Below are positions 11,902 to 54,194 of a DNA stretch of 64,000 nucleotides, piece by piece. Both the position numbers and the translations under genes were made by a program. The DNA is from an uncultured Bacteroidaceae bacterium (GTDB lineage Bacteria > Bacteroidota > Bacteroidia > Bacteroidales > Bacteroidaceae): the NCBI GenBank assembly GCA_905233765.1, contig CAJOCU010000010.1, positions 1 through 64,000 of the forward strand, given 5' to 3'. Position 1 is the first letter of the stretch; each line of letters begins with the position of its first letter. A model generated the notes under the pieces. The model did not search any database. It was given only the letters and a program-made list of their open reading frames with translations, and was not told where the DNA came from.

Positions 11902-13293
11902 TTACTTTTCCTCGACCAAGTCTGTAGCAAGATCCTTAAACCACTTGCTCATACGCGAGAAGGCTCCGGGGCCCTTTTCCTTTTTCTTTTCTTCCTTGGG
12001 CTCCTCTATTTGATCTTCGATGACAGGAACCTCCTCGGGTTGTTCAGGCTTGGGCTGCATGACGACACCTTCTTCCTTGATGGTGGAGGTGGGAATCGTC
12101 GGTTCTTCCCTGCTCGGATCGAAGAGGCCTGGTTCTATAGGACGTTCGCTGGTGCACTCCTCATCGCCACGGCGTAGCATCGCAATCAGGGTTGCAAGGG
12201 TGTTGGATTGCGTATCCAAACGCAGATTGGTGGTAAACTCTGTTACCGCAGGCATCAGGCGAGTCTTCACCTTGTCGAAGTGATGGTATTTGAAGAAGGC
12301 CGTTTCCAGCTGACGCATATTTGCACCACCACCCGTGAAGATGACACCCGAGAGAAGGCGATCGGAATAGTTCTTAACCTGCTCCCATACATTCTCTAGA
12401 ATTTCCTGCTGACGAGACTCTATGATATCTAGCAGTCGCTTCTTGTCAATCTGACGGTCATTGCTGATATTGAGAGTCGTCGTCTCTGCATTCTCCGTTT
12501 CTTCTGTGTAGGCCGAGCCATGGGTACGCTTGAGAAGTTCGGCCTCTTCACGCTCGATATGGAAGATAGCAGCAATGTCTGCTGTGATGTTGTCACCTCC
12601 CATCGGGATGACAACCAAGTGACGCAGGATATTCTTCTCGTAGATGACTACGGTCGTGGTCTCAGCACCAAAATCGACAAGTGCACAACCAGAACGCTTC
12701 TCGGGATCCGTGAGAAGGTAACCAGAGAGGAGAAGGGGTGAGATGAAGAAATCAAATGGTTCCAGCTTGGCTCCTTCCAGACAACGACGCAGGTTCTCGC
12801 AGAGCACCTTGCGTGCCACAATATTCTTGAAATAGCCCTCGATGTGATCAGCCATGATGCCCACGGGATCCATCGTGAGGTGACTGCCCACGCGGTATTC
12901 CTGAGGTACGAAATCAAGAATCTCGGCATTGGGATAGGGTTGCATACGGTTCTCATCCTTCAAAGCGTCCATGATCTCCTCATTGATGGCCACCTTGACA
13001 TCGAGCTGCCGCTTGACAGTGTTACCAATGGTGCGAAGCGACTGTCCCGTCACGCCTACATAAACTTTGTTGACAAAGATCTTCTGGCGCTCTTCGATGC
13101 GCTTGATGACGGTGGCAATGGCCTGCACAGTCTTGTCGATGTTATAAACTACCCCCTTATGGATGCTGTCCGGGGCGCTCTCTTTCTCAAAGCCTGTGAT
13201 CTGCAGGCTTCCGTCGGGCTTCTTCTGCCCTATCATGGCGCGGATCGATGACGATCCGAGCTCAATGACTACGATGTTCTTTTCGACTCCCAT
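11902..13293 (-). CDS. ftsA: Cell division protein FtsA
   Basis: 463 aa; actin-like ATPase motifs, VIFTGGGANM, C-terminal amphipathic FSRMSKWFKDLATDLVEE. Confidence 0.95.
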   Translation of the reverse strand: MGVEKNIVVIELGSSSIRAMIGQKKPDGSLQITGFEKESAPDSIHKGVVYNIDKTVQAIATVIKRIEERQKIFVNKVYVGVTGQSLRTIGNTVKRQLDVKVAINEEIMDALKDENRMQPYPNAEILDFVPQEYRVGSHLTMDPVGIMADHIEGYFKNIVARKVLCENLRRCLEGAKLEPFDFFISPLLLSGYLLTDPEKRSGCALVDFGAETTTVVIYEKNILRHLVVIPMGGDNITADIAAIFHIEREEAELLKRTHGSAYTEETENAETTTLNISNDRQIDKKRLLDIIESRQQEILENVWEQVKNYSDRLLSGVIFTGGGANMRQLETAFFKYHHFDKVKTRLMPAVTEFTTNLRLDTQSNTLATLIAMLRRGDEECTSERPIEPGLFDPSREEPTIPTSTIKEEGVVMQPKPEQPEEVPVIEDQIEEPKEEKKKEKGPGAFSRMSKWFKDLATDLVEEK

Positions 13294-13349
13294 AACCTAT
13301 GTAATATAATGAATAATGAACGATGGATAATGAATTGTTGGCGACGTGG

Positions 13350-14084
13350 TTACTCGCGTCGAGTGCAGATGACTTGATTGTCGAATTTCATGTTGATGGT
13401 CTTATAGCGGTTCCAACCAGCCTTGCTCAAACCTTCGGCATAAAAGGTCTGCAAGCGACAGAGTTTGTCAGTAAGACGGGATGTGTCGCCCAATTGGATG
13501 ATATGCTCACCAACACGAGGGGTGAGTTCCAATTCGCCGGCATCCGTGACATGAATCTCCTGAATCCGGTGATTCCAGAAGGTGTCCCTGCATAGAGTCA
13601 CACCCATGGGCGCATAGAGGGGGCCGGCAGTCTTCTTCTGAACATTGCCAGTCATGACTATGAGGTTGATGTAATGGTGACCGCGTGGCATGATGCCACC
13701 ACAGTTATCGATGTAGAAGTCCTCGCCCGCCTTGTTCAGCACATGAAGCACTGGAACGCGCGGTGTCACACGGATGGTCATGCGTCCGTCAGCAGCTTTG
13801 TAGCAGAGAGCCTCATCAATGTAGGGACTCGCTTTCAGCACCTTTTCCATCTTTGTCAAGCCGATGTCCTTCAGCGCCCTACCCTCAGGGAATAGTTTGT
13901 TTGCCACCAATAACTCACGCACCTCGTTCTCATTGATGAAGCCCGTCGAGTCCTGGTCGTTAACGATAATATCCAGTCCAGTGCAAACCTGACTCTCGTC
14001 GCTATGGTTAAAAGCAACGACAGCGTAGATGAGGTAGCTCGCGACACCTAGTAGGATACATATTTTAGCGATGGTCTTCCACAT
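13350..14084 (-). CDS. ftsQ: Cell division protein FtsQ/DivIB-like
   Basis: Supplied ORF trimmed to MWKTIAKICILLG; TM segment plus POTRA-like region; position between ftsA and murC. Confidence 0.85.
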   Translation of the reverse strand: MWKTIAKICILLGVASYLIYAVVAFNHSDESQVCTGLDIIVNDQDSTGFINENEVRELLVANKLFPEGRALKDIGLTKMEKVLKASPYIDEALCYKAADGRMTIRVTPRVPVLHVLNKAGEDFYIDNCGGIMPRGHHYINLIVMTGNVQKKTAGPLYAPMGVTLCRDTFWNHRIQEIHVTDAGELELTPRVGEHIIQLGDTSRLTDKLCRLQTFYAEGLSKAGWNRYKTINMKFDNQVICTRRE

Positions 14085-42371: not shown

Positions 42372-43190
42372 TTATACCCCACGTAGTTCCCTCAGCTCCA
42401 TGATGTCGAGCATATTGTATTGCACGCCATCAATCTCCTGATGCCAGCTCTGGTGAAAGTGCCCATAGAACCAGTGGCGAAGAGGATGGCTTTTGGCTTT
42501 CAGGTAATGGTGAAGGTCATCCATCGTCTGCCGTTCCTTCTTTACCTGTTCCAAAAGGTCTTCATCCTTCATCACCCAATTTTCGAGTCCTTGTTTGGTC
42601 GTCAATTCACAGAAAGATGGTGCTGTATGTGTAACGACCGTATCGATGAGATAATCCCCACTGATAGCATTTAACTTTTCCATGTCAAATAGCGGAGGCT
42701 CGCCTTTCCAATACACATTCGGCGCCAACGGCTCGTCTGCTTTGGGCAAATGGTAGCGTTCGCTATTCAGTCTATAGGACCTGTCAACAGACACCGCACC
42801 ACCCACACAAAGGATGGTATGACCACAGGCTTGCACGATGCTGTAGTCTGGAAGCGTCATGAAGCGCTGATGCGTGATTGGACACTCGTTGAAATAAACA
42901 GGGTTATCATGATTGCCGCGTAACATCAGTAGCCAGTTATTAGCTTTTGACAGCCGCCCACGATTACGGTTATGTATATTCTCGTAATAACCCTGCTTCT
43001 CAAATCCAAAGCCACTATCTCCGGCCACGATGATAACGGTGTCCGTCATGCCATACTGGACACAGCATTTGAAAACGAGCTCATTGAACTCGCCATGAAT
43101 GTCACCACACATGACAATCCCCTTTGCTTCAGGAAACTCTAACGCTTTCATTTCATTGCGCAGAATAATGACAGGATTACTATTGTACAT
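42372..43190 (-). CDS. Calcineurin-like metallophosphoesterase
   Basis: 272 aa; GDIHGEF, GDSGFGFEKQG, RGNHDNPVYF, GHFHQSWHQ. Confidence 0.85.
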   Translation of the reverse strand: MYNSNPVIILRNEMKALEFPEAKGIVMCGDIHGEFNELVFKCCVQYGMTDTVIIVAGDSGFGFEKQGYYENIHNRNRGRLSKANNWLLMLRGNHDNPVYFNECPITHQRFMTLPDYSIVQACGHTILCVGGAVSVDRSYRLNSERYHLPKADEPLAPNVYWKGEPPLFDMEKLNAISGDYLIDTVVTHTAPSFCELTTKQGLENWVMKDEDLLEQVKKERQTMDDLHHYLKAKSHPLRHWFYGHFHQSWHQEIDGVQYNMLDIMELRELRGV

Positions 43191-43860
43191 TACAACCTCG
43201 TTCTTGAAGGAAGTTCTTACATGAAACGCAAAAGCTTGTTAGTTGTGGGAAATGATCCTTTCCTTTAGCATCTCTCATGATGCAAGTCTTTGATTTATCA
43301 CAATGAGGCAGACCTGCTGCGTGGCCAAGTTCGTGGAGAGCCAATTTGCAAAAGCTTTCCCTGTTCATCTTTTGAATACCACCTAAGCGGAATGATGAAA
43401 TGACAGAGACACCCCGACCAAGATAACTCAGCCCCATCACTCCCCAATCCTCGTGCTCCTTGTATTTGAGACTGATATCTTTTGATGTCAATCCAAGAAT
43501 GTATTCTATCTTATCACTTTCCTGTACTTTACAAGTAAAGAGAGTTTCTTGATAGTCCAACAACTTCGGTGCACGATAACGTTGACGCGGTTCATACCAA
43601 GCTTCAGCAGGAAAATCCAGATGCCCCTTTATCTCCACCTGATTAAACACACATAGGAGCTTCTTCTGCAAATCAGTTGCGACCGAATTGGGGAAATCTC
43701 CATAAGTGTATATCTGTAATGTCAGGGTCTTCGCTTTTCTTTGTTCAATCCGTATGGATGATGAACAGTTTGCATTACTATTCTGCCCTTGGGGTTTAGA
43801 GGTACAAGAGCATATCATAAGAGCAATTGAAAGGAATGGAAGCAGTACAGAAGCTTTCAT
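43180..43860 (-). CDS. Archaemetzincin-like zinc metalloprotease lipoprotein
   Basis: HELGHAAGLPHCDKSKTCIM...CVSC matches the archaemetzincin-type zinc/Cys signature; lipobox ICSC. Confidence 0.75.
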   Translation of the reverse strand: MKASVLLPFLSIALMICSCTSKPQGQNSNANCSSSIRIEQRKAKTLTLQIYTYGDFPNSVATDLQKKLLCVFNQVEIKGHLDFPAEAWYEPRQRYRAPKLLDYQETLFTCKVQESDKIEYILGLTSKDISLKYKEHEDWGVMGLSYLGRGVSVISSFRLGGIQKMNRESFCKLALHELGHAAGLPHCDKSKTCIMRDAKGKDHFPQLTSFCVSCKNFLQERGCNVQ

Positions 43861-44041
43861 ATTATTGAATGTTAATCGGTGCTCATCACTCACTATGGGT
43901 TACGCAAGAATATTCGTTCATCACGACCATCATCTTGCATCATAGTTTATGTTTCGCGCTGCAAATATAGCACGCATTTATCGAAACGAGAAACATTTCC
44001 TGTCGTTTTTCGCTTTTCGCCTCAAATCTATTAACACAGCA

Positions 44042-44159: not shown

Positions 44160-47100
44160 TTATCGGGTCATTTTAAACTTATATACATTTCCATGTTCAC
44201 TCGTTGAGGCCCATGCTCTATACACTGTGCCTTCAATGGACGAGGGATTTGAAAGACTGCTGACGTAACCAGTAAATGACGCCGAATACCATACAGGATG
44301 GTACGAGGAGCCGCCAGTCCACGAGAATACAATCCCGACCTTTCCTTCTGACGAGATTGACCAACTACCCGTTTCCGTTTCTGGAATAAACGAAGAGCCA
44401 CTTGTTGTCTTAGAGGTCGCTCTCTTATCGGAAGTAAGAGTTAAAGTTGCGGTCTCCAAAACAGAGCCGTCATCGTTATATGTCGTACAACTCCAAGTTC
44501 CAGACAAATCGGGAATCCCCGTTAAAGTCGTAAAGGTTTTGTCTGCACCATAGTAAGTTTTACCATTAACTTCGACATATGCACAATATGTGTATTCAGT
44601 ATTTGACTTTAAGCCGCTCAAGGATATTGCTATCGAACCATTGGTGATATTAACGCTCTTACTTATTGAACCGCCATTCCAAGTGTATTCAACGCCACAA
44701 ACTCCACCTTCTGGAACATTCGCGAATGCACATTCCACAATAGCTGAATTATGAGTTATGTTTGAGCTTTCTCCAGTGGTCGAAGTAGGTGCTAAAGTGG
44801 TAAATGTCTTTTTTCCGTTAAAGTCAGCATATGTCTTTCCATTATATTCTATATATGCCCAATATGAGTATTTTGTATCTGGTTGTAAATTTGTGACATT
44901 ATAAGTATCCTTATCCGTTGCAGATACAGGAACGGTTTCTATTTCATCCACTCCATCTGCTTGAATTGCAATATAACACGTGCCATCATCAGGAACATTG
45001 CTAAAGCCATACTCAAATTGAGCGGATGATGCTGTTATAGTTCCACTGATGACATCTTTGACGTATGCACTTGGAGTTAAGGTTGTGAATGACTTCTTCC
45101 CATTCAAGTCCATGTATGTTTCCCCAGCATATTCCACGTATGCCCAATAATTGTATGTCGTTGCTGGATATAAATCTGAAACTTTGATTGTGTCTTTCTC
45201 GGTATATGAAACCTGCTCAATCTTAGGCTCATCTTCATCTACCGCCTGATAAGCTATATAGCATTTACCTGTCCTAGGAACATCATCAAACCCATATTCA
45301 AACTGAGCAGATATTGTGGTTATACTATCAGCGATGACATCACCGACATATGCTTTCAGATGAAAAGTATATTCAAGAGGATACTCCTTTGGCTCTTCAT
45401 AAGCATATTTATCCTCACCGTATTTGGCGTATCCATATAAAGTGGCTGTAGACTTTGGAATAGTCCGATAGTAGTCATATCTGGAATCTGCATTCGTACC
45501 CAAATGTTTGACGGAAATATGGATTTTTTCACCCTCAGGATCTTTATAGACGTATCCCCAGTCTTCTACACCTTCACTGTCTTCTAATTCGACCGTCGTT
45601 GTGGCTGCAAAATCATAGTAATGGGTCTTGTCCTTGTATTCAAACCCATCTCTAATGAATGTGGCATTGTTTACTTCAAACTTTTTCACCTTTGCAGGGG
45701 TCGGAAATTTGGTTATGAATGTAGTGGATGGCGACGCTTTTATTTCTGCGCCCATGAATTTAATCATTGGGCAAACATCATACGTAGTTCCTAATGCCAA
45801 ACCATCAAATGATTCCATGTATTTTTCTAAAGGCCATGATTCAGGTAACATATAGCTATCATCACAGAATTTTGCAGTGAGCAATTCACCATCTTGATTG
45901 CAGACGCCAAGACCAACTGTAATTGGCCATAATAACCTTTCTTTTGGTACAACAGAAGTTATGATTTGGGTCGACTCTAATTTATCCACTGACGGTGCAG
46001 TAAAAGAAGGAACAATCTTACGTGATGTTAGATTACTTTTCATTGAAGCCAACTTATATCCTATTACCTTCTCTTTTTTCATGCCAAATTTCATGTCTAA
46101 TGATAATCCTATTGAGGCTAAGAAGTTAATATCAACGTTGACCTTTTTCAGTTCTTCATATACGCTTGTAGATGGCAGGTCTAATATATCTGTAGAGAAA
46201 TTGGCTACACTTTCAAAACCAGCATCAAAATCTTCTGCAATACCGATTATCTCACCTATTGTGCATAAAGAAACTCCAAATCGTATTCCCCCATAAAGGG
46301 AACCGTTTATGTTGCCTGTTAAAGTAGGCATAGAAAGACCTTCATTTGTTAATTTATTATGTCCATCTGCACTCCATTTTTCATTCTCGTATTTGAAACC
46401 ACATTCAAAGCCAAAAGATCCTCTACTACTGAAAGACATAGAACCCTCCGCGCTAGCTTTAAGTGCTAAGTCAGGATCTATCATTACTAAGAAAGGCGTG
46501 TATGGAATCGGTATCCTAAAGATGCCAATTGGGATATTGGATTCATGATGCACCTTGCCTTTGAGTCCCGCTTCCACGCTTACATCCATATGGGGATGAA
46601 AGGACACATCTATGAAAGATGGTTTCCCTTTAGATAATTTGCAAAGGAGAGATATATCCATAGAAACATGGCCACTCAGCGTGGCGTTGACCCATGTCTT
46701 TGTTGTGTCAGGACGATATGTCCCACTTATATCAAAAGAGGGTGAAATGATTGAATTTATCTTTTTGGGAACAAATCGTCTGCGTGAATTACCTTTATCG
46801 TCAGACTCATCTATTGCCTGATACTCGCCAAAGCAAACAAAGTCTTCATATATATCTTCAAAAGAAACGGAGTCGCATACAATTTTTGAACTTTCAACAT
46901 CTCCCACCCTTCCTGCAAAACCAAATGGGAATCTTTCGTCCTCAAAATTTTCATAAACGAGTACGTCGCCATTTTTCGGTATTAGATTTGAAGGGGTTGT
47001 TGGAGACAGGTTTATTGTCATACCATCTACATCTGTAATGTATGGCAATAGCTCGTCTATTTTTCGAACCTCACTTGAATATTTGTTTTGAGGCTTACAC

Positions 47101-47357
47101 AAGCTAAAGCTATCTATGGCCTCCAAAGGGATCCAATATACACTATCTTTAGTCCAAACGACCTGGCTCTTGTATTCATCATAGACGTTGCCTAACTCAT
47201 CCGACTTACTCGTTGTAATGCTGTCTATTTCAGAATAGAAGAAAGCATTAAACTTTCCATCATTACGATATATATACAAAGCGTCACTTGATGGGATTTG
47301 CGCAAAAGAAAATATAGTCAAAAGGCTGGCCAAGGATAATACAATTGAGCGTTTCAT
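44160..47357 (-). CDS. Large secreted protein with tandem FN3-like repeats
   Basis: 1065 aa; three related ~95-aa units (ISGTITASSAQFEYGFSNVPDDGTCYIAIQA...YWAYIEYNGKTYADFNGKKTFTTL); signal peptide. Confidence 0.7.
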   Translation of the reverse strand: MKRSIVLSLASLLTIFSFAQIPSSDALYIYRNDGKFNAFFYSEIDSITTSKSDELGNVYDEYKSQVVWTKDSVYWIPLEAIDSFSLCKPQNKYSSEVRKIDELLPYITDVDGMTINLSPTTPSNLIPKNGDVLVYENFEDERFPFGFAGRVGDVESSKIVCDSVSFEDIYEDFVCFGEYQAIDESDDKGNSRRRFVPKKINSIISPSFDISGTYRPDTTKTWVNATLSGHVSMDISLLCKLSKGKPSFIDVSFHPHMDVSVEAGLKGKVHHESNIPIGIFRIPIPYTPFLVMIDPDLALKASAEGSMSFSSRGSFGFECGFKYENEKWSADGHNKLTNEGLSMPTLTGNINGSLYGGIRFGVSLCTIGEIIGIAEDFDAGFESVANFSTDILDLPSTSVYEELKKVNVDINFLASIGLSLDMKFGMKKEKVIGYKLASMKSNLTSRKIVPSFTAPSVDKLESTQIITSVVPKERLLWPITVGLGVCNQDGELLTAKFCDDSYMLPESWPLEKYMESFDGLALGTTYDVCPMIKFMGAEIKASPSTTFITKFPTPAKVKKFEVNNATFIRDGFEYKDKTHYYDFAATTTVELEDSEGVEDWGYVYKDPEGEKIHISVKHLGTNADSRYDYYRTIPKSTATLYGYAKYGEDKYAYEEPKEYPLEYTFHLKAYVGDVIADSITTISAQFEYGFDDVPRTGKCYIAYQAVDEDEPKIEQVSYTEKDTIKVSDLYPATTYNYWAYVEYAGETYMDLNGKKSFTTLTPSAYVKDVISGTITASSAQFEYGFSNVPDDGTCYIAIQADGVDEIETVPVSATDKDTYNVTNLQPDTKYSYWAYIEYNGKTYADFNGKKTFTTLAPTSTTGESSNITHNSAIVECAFANVPEGGVCGVEYTWNGGSISKSVNITNGSIAISLSGLKSNTEYTYCAYVEVNGKTYYGADKTFTTLTGIPDLSGTWSCTTYNDDGSVLETATLTLTSDKRATSKTTSGSSFIPETETGSWSISSEGKVGIVFSWTGGSSYHPVWYSASFTGYVSSLSNPSSIEGTVYRAWASTSEHGNVYKFKMTR

Positions 47358-47824
47358 CTCTTCACAATTTTATAAGTTAGACCATTGATCGTAACCACAT
47401 AAGCGCCAGCTTTCAAGTTCGTGAGAGGGAAGGAATATTCTCCAGTCTTTTGAACAGATTTCTTGAAAATAAGTGTGCCATTGATAGAATGAAGAGTAAC
47501 AGTACTGTTAGATTTAAGTGCAGGAAAGAGCAAAGACTCGCCATCCAGCTTGAAGGAGGCTTTGTCGGTTCGCAAATCGGTAATGGCTGTTGCTGTATTG
47601 TCCTCGTAGGTGAAACGAGCCATGTTTTCCAAAGCATAATTCACTTCCACTCCGTTGGAGGTAATGACCAAATCGGTTTCTGTGAATGTAATCTTTGGTT
47701 TCTCGGTCAATGCGTAAGCCACTTTCGTTCCGTCCTTTGCCCATACTACAAGTTGTGTTCTTGGATTGTCTGCCATTGCCATTGAGCAGTAAAGCATAAA
47801 AATAGTCACTACTATTCCTTTCAT
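47354..47824 (-). CDS. Secreted protein with T9SS-like C-terminal domain
   Basis: 156 aa; signal peptide; STVTLHSINGTLIFKKSVQKTGEYSFPLTNLKAGAYVVTINGLTYKIVKR; start overlaps... directly precedes and overlaps the 1065-aa ORF. Confidence 0.65.
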   Translation of the reverse strand: MKGIVVTIFMLYCSMAMADNPRTQLVVWAKDGTKVAYALTEKPKITFTETDLVITSNGVEVNYALENMARFTYEDNTATAITDLRTDKASFKLDGESLLFPALKSNSTVTLHSINGTLIFKKSVQKTGEYSFPLTNLKAGAYVVTINGLTYKIVKR

Positions 47825-47966: not shown

Positions 47967-48245
47967 TTATTTGACGACTAATGAAATATCACATGTCTCG
48001 AAGTTGATTTCCCAATTGCCGCCTTCCACGGACTCCCATTGGTACTTCTTGGCCATCGCATCCCACCACGCTTGAAACTTCGTGCTGGTCTCGCCCATGT
48101 CCTTGACGAGTTTCTCATAGAGTTCCGTATTGTCGGCATTGATAATCTTGGCCAGTTCCATCAGGCCGTTCTTACGCTCGAAGAGCGTCTGGATTTCAGT
48201 GCGCTCTTCGGGCGTCACCTTACCTACAGTCTTTCTTATTTCCAT
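47967..48245 (-). CDS. CXXX repeat peptide modification system accessory protein
   Basis: 92 aa; MEIRKTVGKVTPEERTEIQTLFERKNGLMELAKIIN; last gene of the CXXX/radical SAM cluster. Confidence 0.7.
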   Translation of the reverse strand: MEIRKTVGKVTPEERTEIQTLFERKNGLMELAKIINADNTELYEKLVKDMGETSTKFQAWWDAMAKKYQWESVEGGNWEINFETCDISLVVK

Positions 48246-49201
48246 TGCTGATAGTTATTAAAAGGATCCAAATAATTGATTTCAGGAATTTCATGTGTAT
48301 TGCTCATGTGGAGTCCTTTGGCCTCCATCTTAGCCAGCAAATCCCTTGATGCATTACGCTCTATATGAGCGATGACACACTGCTGATGACTGGGAGTATT
48401 TGCATCGAGGGTAAGATAGCTGTTCAACCAAATGCAACGCTTGCACTGGTAGGCATCGCAATGACGACAGATGGGAGCGTGGTTAAGACGTAACAACTGT
48501 CGGTTCTTGATGTTGAGACCGTCAGCGAGGCTGCCTGCATTTTGCGATGGGTCATCATAGTAGAAGGCCGGACAGAGATAGAACTTCCCATTAGGTGCCA
48601 ATGTCACCGTCGTGTCACCCGCTCCACAATTGTTCATCTGTGTAAGCAACAAGCGGTCGGTCAACAGGTTCAGCTGTACCATACGTCCCGTTTTGAATAC
48701 TTCGATGAGAGCATCAGACAGAGTCTCGAGCAGCGTCTGATAACCTCCTATCTCTTCATCGCGGAAAGCTTCAATATCTGTCAGTACGATGTTCAATCGT
48801 GCCACCTTGTTAAGCAGACTCTTCACGCGCTCAATGTTGGCTTTTAATTCCTGACGGCTGGCGCTGATAATGCAGGTCGCATTCTGAACACTCTCCACAT
48901 CCGTCGTTTGCCACTCTGTCAGCACCAGCACATCCGCCTCTTCAGCCTGCGCCATAGGCTTGATCTTCGTATGGTCAATGCTCTCGATGACTTCGGTATA
49001 CTCAACAGGCAACGCCTCTTCAGGATAAACAAATTGAATGTTTAGGTTCTCCTTCATTGCAAACACGATGCCCGCTTTCAGCACCTCCAACGGTATCAAT
49101 ACTCCCTCGCCCATTGGAGAGGGGAACGACAGGGGGTGAGGTCTATAATGACAATACGACACGCTCCTGTTATCCAATAGTATAATCAAGTATTGCAACA
49201 T
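48236..49201 (-). CDS. CXXX repeat peptide maturase partner (SPASM-like Cys motifs, no CX3CX2C)
   Basis: 321 aa; NNCGAGDTTVTLAPNGKFYLCPAF...CRHCDAYQCKRCIWLN. Confidence 0.75.
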   Translation of the reverse strand: MLQYLIILLDNRSVSYCHYRPHPLSFPSPMGEGVLIPLEVLKAGIVFAMKENLNIQFVYPEEALPVEYTEVIESIDHTKIKPMAQAEEADVLVLTEWQTTDVESVQNATCIISASRQELKANIERVKSLLNKVARLNIVLTDIEAFRDEEIGGYQTLLETLSDALIEVFKTGRMVQLNLLTDRLLLTQMNNCGAGDTTVTLAPNGKFYLCPAFYYDDPSQNAGSLADGLNIKNRQLLRLNHAPICRHCDAYQCKRCIWLNSYLTLDANTPSHQQCVIAHIERNASRDLLAKMEAKGLHMSNTHEIPEINYLDPFNNYQQWK

Positions 49202-49204
49202 AGT

Positions 49205-50452
49205 CTATAAATCACAAGTCTTGTGGTTCGACTTCCGTTTCTGTTCCTCGTAGTCCTGCAACTCCAACTTGCGGAACAATTTATTCCAATAGTAGTTGTT
49301 CGCCCGCACGCGTGCCTTGTGCATCTTGCAGATGGCCGTTGCACGCTGATAGACGGTGTGCGTGTCAGCAGCATCGTAGTTCTCGCCCTGACACCAGGCA
49401 CAGCCGCTCGCCACCTCGCAGTTGATACATTCTTCAATCGATTGCGTACAGCGATCTAGCGTTAAAAACGGGCGCAACTTATTTTTATCAATGCCATCAT
49501 GCACATTGCCAATAATCCATGCAGGCTTACTCCGTAAGGAATACTGCGCAAAACGGGTGCAGGGGTAGAACATACCTGCTGCATCGACTGCCAACATCAT
49601 ACCTGCGCCACACCAATTCTGGTTGTCATGCTCGTGGTCCATCGGCTTTCCGATATGTTCTTGGAAAAACGAACAAGCGTACTCTTCATACAACCGCCCG
49701 TCAATGATAGCATCTGCCAGTTCCGTTAGTTGCTGCTCGAAAAGTCTATCATCGCCCTCATGCCACACCGCCTCGAACACGCAGTTGATGTTCACCTCCT
49801 TGATGCCGAGAGAATATAAATGTAATACACTCTCTTTAATATAAGGAATATCAGCCGAACTGATGGTCACCTTTGTTCCCGCGCCGGGGAACTGCTCTAA
49901 CCATAGTGGGATATTTCGCACAACATCCTTATATGATCCTTGTTCCTCTTCTGGCTTGGGCTGTATGCCTTCCTCCATCCCGGGAGTCTTCCAGATGCGG
50001 TTAAGGTCGTGCTTGCGTTGTGTTCCGTCAATGGTGATGCCGATGCTCAGGTGGTTGTGGTTCTTCTCGATGAAACGCTGCACCTTCTCCGTATGGTAGT
50101 TGATGCCGTTGGTAGAAAACGAGAAGCGATAGGAGTTGAACCAATGGTGGTTCCTGCGGTACATCTCTGTTTTCAGATAGTCACAAATCTTATCAATTAG
50201 ATCTATCTCTAAGAACGGCTCGCCACCGATGAAGTCCCAAATGACACTCTCCTCTTGGAATTCTTCCTCATGACCGAGGATATAGTCAATGGCCTCCTTT
50301 GCCTCCTCCCACGACATCCGCTCCTGGGTATTCTTTCCTACTAGATAGCAGTACTTACACGCCAATTGGCAATCCTTGGTGACAATGAACGTGATGGATT
50401 TGGAAGTGCCGTCTTTCCACAGTATTGTGTTTTCTTTTATCATTTCCTTCAT
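49205..50452 (-). CDS. Radical SAM/SPASM peptide maturase, CXXX-repeat target family
   Basis: 415 aa; CQLACKYCYL (CX3CX2C) plus C-terminal SPASM-like Cys cluster; TAATG overlap with the precursor stop. Confidence 0.88.
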   Translation of the reverse strand: MKEMIKENTILWKDGTSKSITFIVTKDCQLACKYCYLVGKNTQERMSWEEAKEAIDYILGHEEEFQEESVIWDFIGGEPFLEIDLIDKICDYLKTEMYRRNHHWFNSYRFSFSTNGINYHTEKVQRFIEKNHNHLSIGITIDGTQRKHDLNRIWKTPGMEEGIQPKPEEEQGSYKDVVRNIPLWLEQFPGAGTKVTISSADIPYIKESVLHLYSLGIKEVNINCVFEAVWHEGDDRLFEQQLTELADAIIDGRLYEEYACSFFQEHIGKPMDHEHDNQNWCGAGMMLAVDAAGMFYPCTRFAQYSLRSKPAWIIGNVHDGIDKNKLRPFLTLDRCTQSIEECINCEVASGCAWCQGENYDAADTHTVYQRATAICKMHKARVRANNYYWNKLFRKLELQDYEEQKRKSNHKTCDL

Positions 50453-51078
50453 TAATAATAACTAGCTCTATCACATCTTCCCCTACAGCTAGCACTACAG
50501 TTGTTTCCACATAGGCCACCACACCCCGTACAATTCCCACTGCATGAGCCTGTACATTGGTTATAACAGTTCCCGCTACAACTCCGTTGACATGAGCCTG
50601 AGCAAGATGAAAAGCAACCAGAAGAACATCCAGAGCATCCTCCTGTACCACCCTGATTAACTATTACAGTTCTATTGTTCTGTGAGCCATTTCCACCTTG
50701 TCTTTGTCCGTCTCCTCTTTTTGCAGTATTTTGACATCCCGAAAGACAGGTACCCGTACATCCGTTTTGGCAAGAACCTTTACAAGCATTTTGACATGAA
50801 GTTTGGCAACCCGTGTAGCACGTCCCAGTACATGTAGCTTGACAACCATCTTGACAATTACCTTGACATGCTGCCACGCATGTAATATAGCATGTCTTAT
50901 AGCATGTGTTTACACAGGAAGCAGCACATCCGAAATAACAACTAGTAGGTATTTTACTCTCGCTAGCTTCTATTAGTACACTAGGGATAAAAACAGTCCC
51001 AAGAATTGGCAATAATTTAGCAGCTTTCTTAAAGAATTCACGACGACTTCGCAGTTCTTCATTCTCTTGTTTACTCAT
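50452..51078 (-). CDS. Cys-Xaa-Xaa-Xaa repeat radical SAM target precursor with Tat-like leader
   Basis: 208 aa; SRREFFKKAAKLLPILG leader; two blocks of Cys every 4 residues (18 and 15 Cys by my count) separated by a G/Q/N-rich linker. Confidence 0.9.
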   Translation of the reverse strand: MSKQENEELRSRREFFKKAAKLLPILGTVFIPSVLIEASESKIPTSCYFGCAASCVNTCYKTCYITCVAACQGNCQDGCQATCTGTCYTGCQTSCQNACKGSCQNGCTGTCLSGCQNTAKRGDGQRQGGNGSQNNRTVIVNQGGTGGCSGCSSGCFSSCSGSCQRSCSGNCYNQCTGSCSGNCTGCGGLCGNNCSASCRGRCDRASYY

Positions 51079-51742: not shown

Positions 51743-52429
51743 TTAGAGGTCGCGGCCGGGACGGAGCTGGGCGGCATCGTCATAGGTGAGGATGGCGTTG
51801 ACGAGGGTGGCGGCGAGGTTGCTGCCGCCCTTGCGGCCTTCGACGATAATCTTGGGGATGTCGCGCAGGGTCTTCACGGCGTGCTTGCTCTCGCAGACAT
51901 GAACGAAGCCGACGGGGGCAGCGATGATGCCGGCAGGATGGAGCTTGCCCTTGCGAACAAGGTCGCAAATCTCAAAGAGGGCTGTGGGGGCGTTGCCTAC
52001 GACATAGAGGGCGTCGGGATATTCCTCGGCAGCCAGCTGCATAGCGGCTTGGCTGCGGGTGATGGAAGGCCTCTCCCCCGACCCCTCTCCCGTGAGAGAG
52101 GGGAGATTGGCGATCTGTTTCGTGCGTGGGTCGTTGATGTAGCAGTGAACCTCGATGCCGAGGCGTTCCAGCGCACCCTTGCGGATGCCGGCGGCTGCCA
52201 TCGTCACGTCGGTGACGATATGCTTCAGGCTGCCGTCTGTCACCTTGTTATATAAGAGTTCCGTGGCGCGGTCGTCCATCCACTCAGCACCTTCGGGCAA
52301 CAGCGGTGCTACTATCACATGGTGGCGCCTTCCTCCAGAGAACACATGGCCACGGTTGATAATATCCTGTACTTCGGGCGGGAAGAACGGGTGCGGATGA
52401 TCGGTGATGCCTATGACAATAAACTTCAT
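51743..52429 (-). CDS. Chimeric ORF: CbiE N-terminal ~50 aa joined to CbiC (precorrin-8X methylmutase) C-terminal region
   Basis: Aa 1-50 MKFIVIGITDHPHPFFPPEV...PEGAEW match the CbiE start; from MDDRATELLYNKV onward it matches CbiC in the neighbouring CbiH-CbiC fusion. Confidence 0.9.
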   Translation of the reverse strand: MKFIVIGITDHPHPFFPPEVQDIINRGHVFSGGRRHHVIVAPLLPEGAEWMDDRATELLYNKVTDGSLKHIVTDVTMAAAGIRKGALERLGIEVHCYINDPRTKQIANLPSLTGEGSGERPSITRSQAAMQLAAEEYPDALYVVGNAPTALFEICDLVRKGKLHPAGIIAAPVGFVHVCESKHAVKTLRDIPKIIVEGRKGGSNLAATLVNAILTYDDAAQLRPGRDL

Positions 52430-52734
52430 GCCTTATAGTCTTTGCGTTTCGGGTTCTTAGGGAACCAACCTCTTTCAACACGTTTTTTCTGCTCAAACAG
52501 TTCACCAATTCCCCATAGCGCTGAGGCTCCAAACACGCCCACTACGGATGAGAGAATGGCATTCTCGATGAACAGTGCAGCTATCATGCAAACGATGCCA
52601 ATGATTAAATACACAATCCATGGACGTGTACCACAATGGTACTCCGTCTTGATGACGATGGGGTGCCAGAGGCCAATAGTGAGAAAGGTGCACACGGCGA
52701 TGATGATGCCGGTAAAATAGAGATGTTCCATCAT
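52426..52734 (-). CDS. DUF4491-family small membrane protein
   Basis: 102 aa; MMEHLYFTGIIIAVCTFLTIGLWHPIVIKTEYHCGT...ELFEQKKRVERGWFPKNPKR. Confidence 0.75.
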   Translation of the reverse strand: MMEHLYFTGIIIAVCTFLTIGLWHPIVIKTEYHCGTRPWIVYLIIGIVCMIAALFIENAILSSVVGVFGASALWGIGELFEQKKRVERGWFPKNPKRKDYKA

Positions 52735-54194
52735 AGGTCACGACCAGGTTTGAGTTGCGCAGCATCGTCGTAGGTGAGGATGCTGTTGACAAGTGTTGCA
52801 GCGAGGTTGCTGCCGCCCTTGCGGCCCTCGACGATAATCTTGGTAATGGATGTCAGCGTCTTCACGGCATGCTTGCTCTCGCAGACATGCACAAAACCCA
52901 CGGGTGCAGCAATGATACCGGCAGGCTTCATCTTGGCCTTCCGCACCAGGTCGCAGATCTCGAAGAGTGCTGTAGGGGCATTGCCCACGACATAGAGCGC
53001 ATCGGGGTACTCTTCTGCAGCCAAGTGCATACACGCCTGACTGCGGGTGATACCCTTCTCCTCGGCCATCTGCTTCGAACGCGGATCATTGATATAGCAA
53101 TGCACCTCGATACCCAGCCGCTCCAGCGCGCCCTTGCGGATACCCGCTGCCGCCATCGTCACGTCGGTCACGATGTGTCGCAGGCTGCCATCAGCCACCT
53201 TATTATATAGGATCTCCGTGGCGCGCTCGTCCATCCACAGGCACTCCTCCATGCCGAAGTCCACCGTCGTGTGGATGGCGTGCAGCAGCGGCCAGAGGCG
53301 CCAGCGTGGCACCTCGGGATGGTGCATCTCGGAGAGGATGGTGCGGAAGGATTCGTTCATGATAGAAGCCCCCACCTGCCCTCCCCCAGTGGGGAGGGAA
53401 ATGCTTTCCCTATAGTAGCCACGCGGGGTTATGAAGACATAGTCTTTGCTGCCCTCCCCACCACGGGTGGAGCGGGGAGAGGGGCTTACATAACTCTGGC
53501 TATTCCCTATGATTAGAACGGTGAACATATCTACCTGTTCGGGGTCAAGATCTGCAAGAGTGGTGATGGTGACATCTTGTTCTGGTCGTCCTGCTTGGCG
53601 AACAATACCGACAGGAGTCCCACCTGAGCGTTCCTGCAAGAAGAGTTCTTTCAGGCGATAGAGCTGCCAGTAGCGCCCTTGGCTTTTAGGATTATAGACA
53701 GCGGTCACGAAGTCAGCGAAAGCCGCCGCACGGATGCGTTTCTCAATCACTGCCCATGGCGTCATGAGGTCGGAGAGGGAAATGATACAAAGATCATGAC
53801 CGATGGGAGCGCCCAACAAGGAGGCCGCCTTTTGGAAAGCACTGATGCCAGGGAGCGACTCGATGGTGATGTCAGCGGGTAAACCGCTGACCGCACGCTC
53901 CTGCGCCATTTCGTAGAGCAGCGGCGCCATGCCATAGATGCCTGCATCGCCCGACGAGATCACCACCACAGACTTGTCCTGCTCAGCCAACGCGAAAGCC
54001 TGCTCCGCACGTTCACGTTCACGCTTCATGCCTGTGTCGATGCACTCGCACCCCTCGCGGAGGTAGGACTCCACGAAGCGGAAATAATATTTATACCCCA
54101 CGACCACGTCGGCTTCACGCAATGCCGAGAGGACTGCGGGCGTGATATCTTCAGGACTACCGGGGCCTAGTCCCGCTATGATGATCTTTTTCAT
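52731..54194 (-). CDS. Fusion: CbiH (precorrin-3B C17-methyltransferase) + CbiC (precorrin-8X methylmutase)
   Basis: N-terminal IIAGLGPGSPEDITPAVLSALREADVVVGY...SSGDAGIYGMA; C-terminal IHTTVDFG...VTDVTMAAAGI...VCESKHAVKTL. Confidence 0.92.
   Translation of the reverse strand: MKKIIIAGLGPGSPEDITPAVLSALREADVVVGYKYYFRFVESYLREGCECIDTGMKRERERAEQAFALAEQDKSVVVISSGDAGIYGMAPLLYEMAQERAVSGLPADITIESLPGISAFQKAASLLGAPIGHDLCIISLSDLMTPWAVIEKRIRAAAFADFVTAVYNPKSQGRYWQLYRLKELFLQERSGGTPVGIVRQAGRPEQDVTITTLADLDPEQVDMFTVLIIGNSQSYVSPSPRSTRGGEGSKDYVFITPRGYYRESISLPTGGGQVGASIMNESFRTILSEMHHPEVPRWRLWPLLHAIHTTVDFGMEECLWMDERATEILYNKVADGSLRHIVTDVTMAAAGIRKGALERLGIEVHCYINDPRSKQMAEEKGITRSQACMHLAAEEYPDALYVVGNAPTALFEICDLVRKAKMKPAGIIAAPVGFVHVCESKHAVKTLTSITKIIVEGRKGGSNLAATLVNSILTYDDAAQLKPGRDL

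Follow-up and report, generated by a model that had tools for sequence, protein, structure and literature searches.

A CXXX-repeat radical SAM locus of an uncultured Bacteroidaceae bacterium with a predicted SPASM pseudo-enzyme, and its relatives, most of which encode TatA-TatC beside it

Reading of the open reading frames at positions 47967-51078 of the window, i.e. the whole stretch of 64,000 nucleotides that was analysed from this gut-type Bacteroidota genome, revealed four tightly packed genes encoding, in the direction of transcription, a cysteine-rich precursor, a radical SAM/SPASM enzyme (the maturase), a second SPASM-type protein (the partner) and a 92-aa accessory protein (Table 1). 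The original prediction, made from the letters of the sequence, had these coordinates right and did not mention that all four genes lie on the minus strand. The overlap of the precursor stop with the maturase start in TAATG, also pointed out there, was found on re-reading, and the partner and accessory genes were seen to share 10 nt.

Table 1. Genes and sequence features of the CXXX-repeat locus, in window coordinates.
Feature	Position	Strand	Support
CXXX-repeat precursor, 208 aa, 33 Cys	50452..51078	(-)	TIGR04117, 47.4 bits (cut-off 50)
Leader, residues 1-46	50941..51078	(-)	S-RR-E-FF-K (residues 11-17) and conserved LP; hydrophobic stretch; end of signal peptidase I type, lipobox absent
Cys block 1, 18 Cys, residues 47-115	50734..50940	(-)	spacing 4 throughout
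Gly/Gln/Asn linker, 32 residues without Cys	50638..50733	(-)	Cys count
Cys block 2, 15 Cys, residues 148-202	50473..50637	(-)	two CxxC slips
Radical SAM/SPASM maturase, 415 aa	49205..50452	(-)	TIGR04115, 634.5 bits (cut-off 350)
CxxxCxxC of the radical SAM cluster: C28, C32, C35	50348..50371	(-)	invariant in 80 sequences
Maturase SPASM Cys: C281, C298, C342, C345, C351, C354, C375	49328..49612	(-)	alignment
Putative pseudo-radical-SAM/SPASM partner, 321 aa	48236..49201	(-)	TIGR04119, 244.2 bits (cut-off 150)
Partner C17	49151..49153	(-)	99% conserved; aligns with third Cys of CxxxCxxC
Partner SPASM Cys: C192, C210, C245, C248, C253, C256, C275	48377..48628	(-)	alignment
Accessory protein, 92 aa	47967..48245	(-)	TIGR04116, 100.5 bits (cut-off 50); predicted beta-alpha-alpha-beta-beta fold

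Several other genes of the minus strand should be mentioned. Directly downstream, two genes overlapping by 4 nt (44160-47357 and 47354-47824) encode a secreted 1065-aa protein with fibronectin-III-like repeats and a 156-aa protein with a T9SS-type sorting domain, neither of which is conserved beside the system in related loci. An archaemetzincin-like zinc metalloprotease with a lipoprotein-like signal is encoded at 43180-43893 (NF033823, 85.5 bits at a cut-off of 145). Furthermore, the 228-aa protein encoded at 51743-52429 repeats near-verbatim the C-terminal half of a 487-aa protein encoded at 52731-54194 (shared stretch WMDERATE(I/L)LYNKV.DGSL.HIVTDVTMAAAGIRKGALERLGIEVHCYINDPR...), apparently because a precorrin-8X methylmutase-like domain was duplicated in tandem within a cobalamin gene run.

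Matching to NCBIfam models, the check proposed at the outset, placed the maturase, the partner and the accessory protein above their cut-offs and the precursor just under that of TIGR04117 (E 1.5e-12), a model matched at E <= 0.001 by 58 of the 62 precursors taken from the window and related loci. By these profile scores the locus is assigned, as anticipated, to the catalogued CXXX-repeat radical SAM target system (TIGR04114-TIGR04117, TIGR04119), with which it shares three enzymes or accessories, the precursor type and the gene neighbourhood, while differing in its two-block precursor and in the absence of tatA-tatC; it adds a new locus, somewhat reduced, to a family known in silico. Judged from its model names, the catalogue holds parts only, to which the present comparison adds linked TatA-TatC, lipoprotein-type precursors and the prediction that TIGR04119 proteins are pseudo-radical-SAM enzymes. 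No paper naming these CXXX-repeat models was found in the literature searched.

For comparison, 80 related loci were retrieved from the genome collection with the maturase as query (81 with the window), nearly all from Bacteroidales; three come from MAGs labelled Bacillota (L044, L081 and L104) that are possibly misbinned. The partner was present in 80, the precursor in 78 and the accessory gene in 77 of the 81 loci, and all four gene types co-occurred in 74, with several of the remaining loci ending at contig edges. Their order was kept as precursor(s), radical SAM gene, partner, in some cases further precursors, and accessory gene. TIGR04119 exceeded its cut-off in 41 of 399 genomes sampled from the same family, and TIGR04115 did so in 5 of 297 across the phylum. 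Clustering of all flanking genes returned no conserved neighbour beyond the core and TatA-TatC, i.e. no ABC exporter, peptidase, regulator or immunity gene. It should be added that no relative of the enzyme was found among viral contigs, on which ground phage carriage was rejected, and that a role in anti-phage defence was rejected, the only hint being a generic resonance of the radical SAM domain with the viperin model.

A recount of the precursor gave the cysteine layout first described, with 29 of its 32 Cys spacings being exactly 4, whereas 10,000 shuffles averaged 3.3 such spacings and gave at most 10. The loci carry from one to eight precursors each (137 in total, that of the window counted); among the 136 from other loci, a position upstream of the enzyme was seen for 119, and 15 stand between the partner and accessory genes. 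Across this set 85% of 2846 Cys spacings equal 4 and 7% equal 3, and within CxxxC Gly is favoured at +2 (36%) and Ser, Gly and Thr at +3 (71%), with Asp and Glu together making up only 6-8% at any position. In the leader pairwise identity averages 54%; at sites other than Cys in the first five repeats it is 15%, with 12% expected from composition, so that selection acts on the leader and the Cys lattice and not on the residues between. A precursor encoded beside its modifying enzyme and kept with it as a pair is a general mark of RiPPs and is seen here, the precursor usually standing upstream of the maturase; since this type of precursor is kept in both sequence and position it is not a chance open reading frame. 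No further precursors were found in trans in the window genome, all 17 matches to a six-Cys lattice pattern falling in the precursor gene of the window. In 92% of loci the precursor had a lower GC3 than the enzyme (means 0.35 vs 0.55; 0.25 vs 0.61 in the window), which may reflect either a composition effect or recent exchange. As to individual loci, L043 carries eight different precursors, several with near-identical leaders and unrelated cores, making on sequence grounds a strong case of cassette diversification, and in L066 a second, partial copy of partner and accessory gene (13138-13751), with further precursors around it, looks like a segmental duplication.

The maturase contains the CQLACKYCYL motif and the SPASM-like cysteines noticed earlier, seven in number. 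Two further cysteines, C90 and C260, are 100% conserved, and C413, two residues from the C-terminus (window ~49214), is conserved at 97%, all three lying outside the known cluster sets. Its best non-self NCBIfam match was the ranthipeptide maturase PapB (NF047865; 183.7 bits, not reaching the cut-off of 340), with the SCIFF maturase and QhpD also among the best matches, and the closest solved structure was that of the SCIFF maturase CteB (PDB 5wgg, E 4e-23; see also 5why). These matches point at a kinship nearest to thioether-forming enzymes.

The partner had been described as bearing SPASM-like cysteines and no radical SAM motif; indeed it has no CxxxCxxC, and its seven SPASM-pattern cysteines were found at 100% in an alignment of 78 sequences. 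In profile searches its C-terminal half aligned with the CteB SPASM domain, and C17 fell in register with the third cysteine of the CteB CxxxCxxC at a score that was not significant; comparison of the partner and maturase profiles gave an alignment over the SPASM half (E 3e-5). The predicted structure (mean pLDDT 91.6) had CteB as its best PDB match (E 9e-11, TM 0.65), followed by anSME, SuiB and PqqE. Retention of the seven SPASM cysteines, reduction of CxxxCxxC to its third Cys and the CteB-like fold together suggest that the SAM cluster was lost and both auxiliary cluster sites were kept, and the partner is therefore predicted to be a pseudo-radical-SAM enzyme. The 92-aa protein was present as first reported. 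Its predicted fold had no match in the PDB, and a role as RiPP recognition element (RRE) was rejected on that ground and on the order of its secondary structure elements; no RRE domain was found.

Building on the observed gene content, its conservation, the linked TatA-TatC and the SPASM pseudo-enzyme, the best explanation overall, which we hold with a probability of about 60%, is a CXXX-repeat radical SAM RiPP whose cysteines are modified in the cytoplasm, most likely to thioethers, and whose product is exported by Tat. The nearest characterised maturase by score, PapB, acts on the ranthipeptide precursor PapA with its six CX3D/E motifs (PMC9413430); the two systems have in common the Cys-X3 spacing and two auxiliary clusters, whereas an acidic acceptor is missing here and a long repeat lattice, a separate SPASM partner and a Tat leader are present. 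With no fixed acceptor residue and with Asp and Glu rare, the Cys-Asp/Glu links that PapB itself makes cannot be the rule throughout this family and were rejected on these residue statistics. CteB, in turn, is one self-contained enzyme serving a short six-Cys peptide, in contrast to the two SPASM proteins found here, only one of which would hold a SAM cluster.

It is rather unlikely, in our view, that the product is instead a metal-binding or redox rod, its cysteines left free or ligating metal or Fe-S loaded in the cytoplasm, with Tat exporting the holoprotein and the radical SAM enzyme making a minor or different change. A chain with 33 thiols, in which the Cys lattice is the only strongly kept feature of the core, would suit such a rod, which would also account for Tat, the classical exporter of cofactor-loaded proteins, equally well as thioethers do; however, the maturase is closest to thioether-forming enzymes and would be unneeded for metal loading alone, and a spacing of 4 with few CxxC or CxC is unlike that of metallothioneins or ferredoxin sites. 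Somewhat less probable again is that the lattice undergoes another radical chemistry, such as sulfur-free C-C or C-O links, epimerisation or Cys oxidation, within an otherwise identical course of maturation and Tat export. SPASM enzymes of related families, weaker NCBIfam matches of the maturase, do make cyclophanes and other links, and the bias at +3 leaves room for other acceptors, but PapB, the SCIFF maturase and QhpD, its best-scoring characterised relatives, all form thioethers, and cysteine is the only residue that is always present.

The twin-arginine-like leader first noticed, SRREFFKKAAKLLPILG, was found in the window precursor, where SRREFFK is followed by a hydrophobic stretch and a signal peptidase site, in concordance with the S/T-R-R-x-F-L-K-like motif and general build of Tat substrates. 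By commonest residue the leader of the precursor set reads E-L-Q-S-R-R-E-F-F-K-K-A-A-K-x-A-L-P-I-L-G. The first list of precursors having used an RR filter, the count was redone on all Cys-repeat open reading frames, drawn without RR selection: of the 133 obtained, 129 show RR ahead of the repeat, and the other four look broken, frame-shifted or split. Moreover, TatC was linked in 56 of the 73 loci with enough flank to judge, a TatA gene (about 68-96 aa) followed by TatC standing in these 56 directly after the accessory gene, and the TatA start lay at most 20 nt from the accessory stop or overlapped it in 52 of 60 cases. Bacteroides salyersiae and Xylanibacter rarus are two culturable relatives in which the pair is linked. 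The linked TatC sequences form one side of a branch (support 89/94), apart from 21 unlinked ones that include the window genome's own. Across the 399 genomes, kinship being ignored, TatC was present in 41/41 of those positive for TIGR04119 and in 275/358 of the others (Fisher p 6e-5), and at least two TatC copies in 25/41 vs 20/358 (Fisher p 4e-17). With linked TatA-TatC, this association and no other conserved neighbour, the most economical account has Tat as the exporter and general signal peptidases cutting the leader. The original observation is confirmed, and its CXXX-repeat/Tat interpretation supported, the Tat leader strongly so.

A similar arrangement exists in Bacillus, where TatAd-TatCd, a minimal TatAC pair additional to the general one, is encoded beside its own substrate, PhoD; that substrate is an enzyme, whereas here it would be a modified repeat peptide. 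The split between TatCd and TatCy has been described (PMC3827258). Our literature search found nothing on Tat with radical SAM RiPPs, and for Bacteroidetes with an additional or dedicated Tat operon it returned only a TatC survey. We give little credence to the RR leader being a recognition sequence for the maturase only, with export via Sec or none at all: its conservation does go beyond the needs of Tat (LP at +12/+13 in 87% and 93%), and the window has no linked Tat genes, but the co-inherited TatA-TatC, the genome-wide association with TatC and leader ends of lipobox or signal peptidase type all speak against it.

A lipobox closes the leader in 46 of 137 precursors (45 by a slightly different rule), and among the eight residues after the first Cys these have on average 3.0 acidic ones, vs 0.3 in the rest. 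The surface-lipoprotein export signal of Bacteroidota is K-(D/E)2, and SDDDD in B. fragilis (PMC5080379), which the acidic stretch of the lipobox precursors resembles in sequence. The leaders of the remaining precursors, among them that of the window, have ends resembling those of signal peptidase I substrates, and the window precursor does not combine a lipobox Cys with the acidic signal. Lipoprotein-type precursors alone were found in 12/16 loci without linked TatC vs 12/54 with it, kinship being ignored, and the window is among the few loci that lack linked TatC and yet have a precursor of soluble type. It should also be added that in L033 (4429-5655) a Cys lattice is fused, behind a lipobox, to a folded domain of FISUMP (Fib_succ_major) type, and that similar-looking fusions, scoring below model thresholds, occur in L034, L041, L060 and L086.

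The locus had been called complete, which holds for the four core genes and fails for tatA-tatC, terminal in the fuller loci of relatives and absent from the window. Its three nearest relatives (L033-L035) have kept TatA and have no TatC, and the window appears to be a derived case in which the linked pair was lost. One TatA and one TatC lie side by side on another contig of its genome (assembly 87% complete); with no linked genes and this single housekeeping pair, the window product most likely uses the latter and would likewise depend on Tat. That the locus is decayed and on its way out is the least probable account, since four intact reading frames, complete catalytic motifs, a perfect block 1 lattice and the housekeeping TatA and TatC outweigh the stepwise loss of TatC and then TatA towards the window and the rarity of its precursor type among loci without TatC.

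Returning to a Tat-exported, radical SAM-modified product, we infer the following course. The leader would act as Tat signal peptide and probably also as recognition element for the maturase, which would modify the lattice cysteines one after another in the cytoplasm, most likely forming thioethers to neighbouring residues of any type with a loss of ~2 Da per bond. The partner would most likely be complexed with the maturase as electron relay and/or substrate holder, as its modelled fold and conserved cysteines suggest, and the 92-aa protein may be a further subunit. In PapB each thioether formed deposits an electron in an auxiliary cluster, from which intermolecular transfer by an outside carrier is needed (PMC10470005), a role that a dedicated second SPASM protein would fit; moreover, the lattice would require tens of turnovers per chain, making a relay partner useful. 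The modified and rigid core would then leave by Tat, because Sec could not thread the stiff chain that thioethers to small residues between the cysteines would give, through the housekeeping TatA-TatC in the window and through their own pair in most relatives, and the leader would be cut by signal peptidase I in soluble forms, as in the window, or by signal peptidase II in lipoprotein forms. A bolder version of this, that these are radical-SAM polythioether proteins with their own Tat translocase, made by a two-protein SPASM machine into rigid rods from a Cys lattice of otherwise free sequence, then exported in folded form, a third of them to be displayed on the cell surface as lipoproteins, is put forward tentatively as a possibility that we would not yet bet on.

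The usual exporters of RiPPs are dedicated ABC transporters or Sec-type routes. The literature searched contained no RiPP system that combines a Tat translocase of its own with a SPASM pseudo-enzyme, which is the family-level finding here. A RiPP cluster with its own TatA-TatC suggests a product that has been folded or cross-linked by the time it is exported, and if the polythioether reading is true, modification chemistry would be coupled to dedicated export in the folded state. The predicted pseudo-radical-SAM partner, furthermore, suggests itself as the outside carrier of electrons that PapB-type chemistry requires. With large precursors, and with genes for immunity or regulation not obvious beside them, a role in structure or at the surface would fit better than that of an antibiotic, and the own-copy Tat machine in most relatives points to a class of modified, secreted or surface-anchored proteins.
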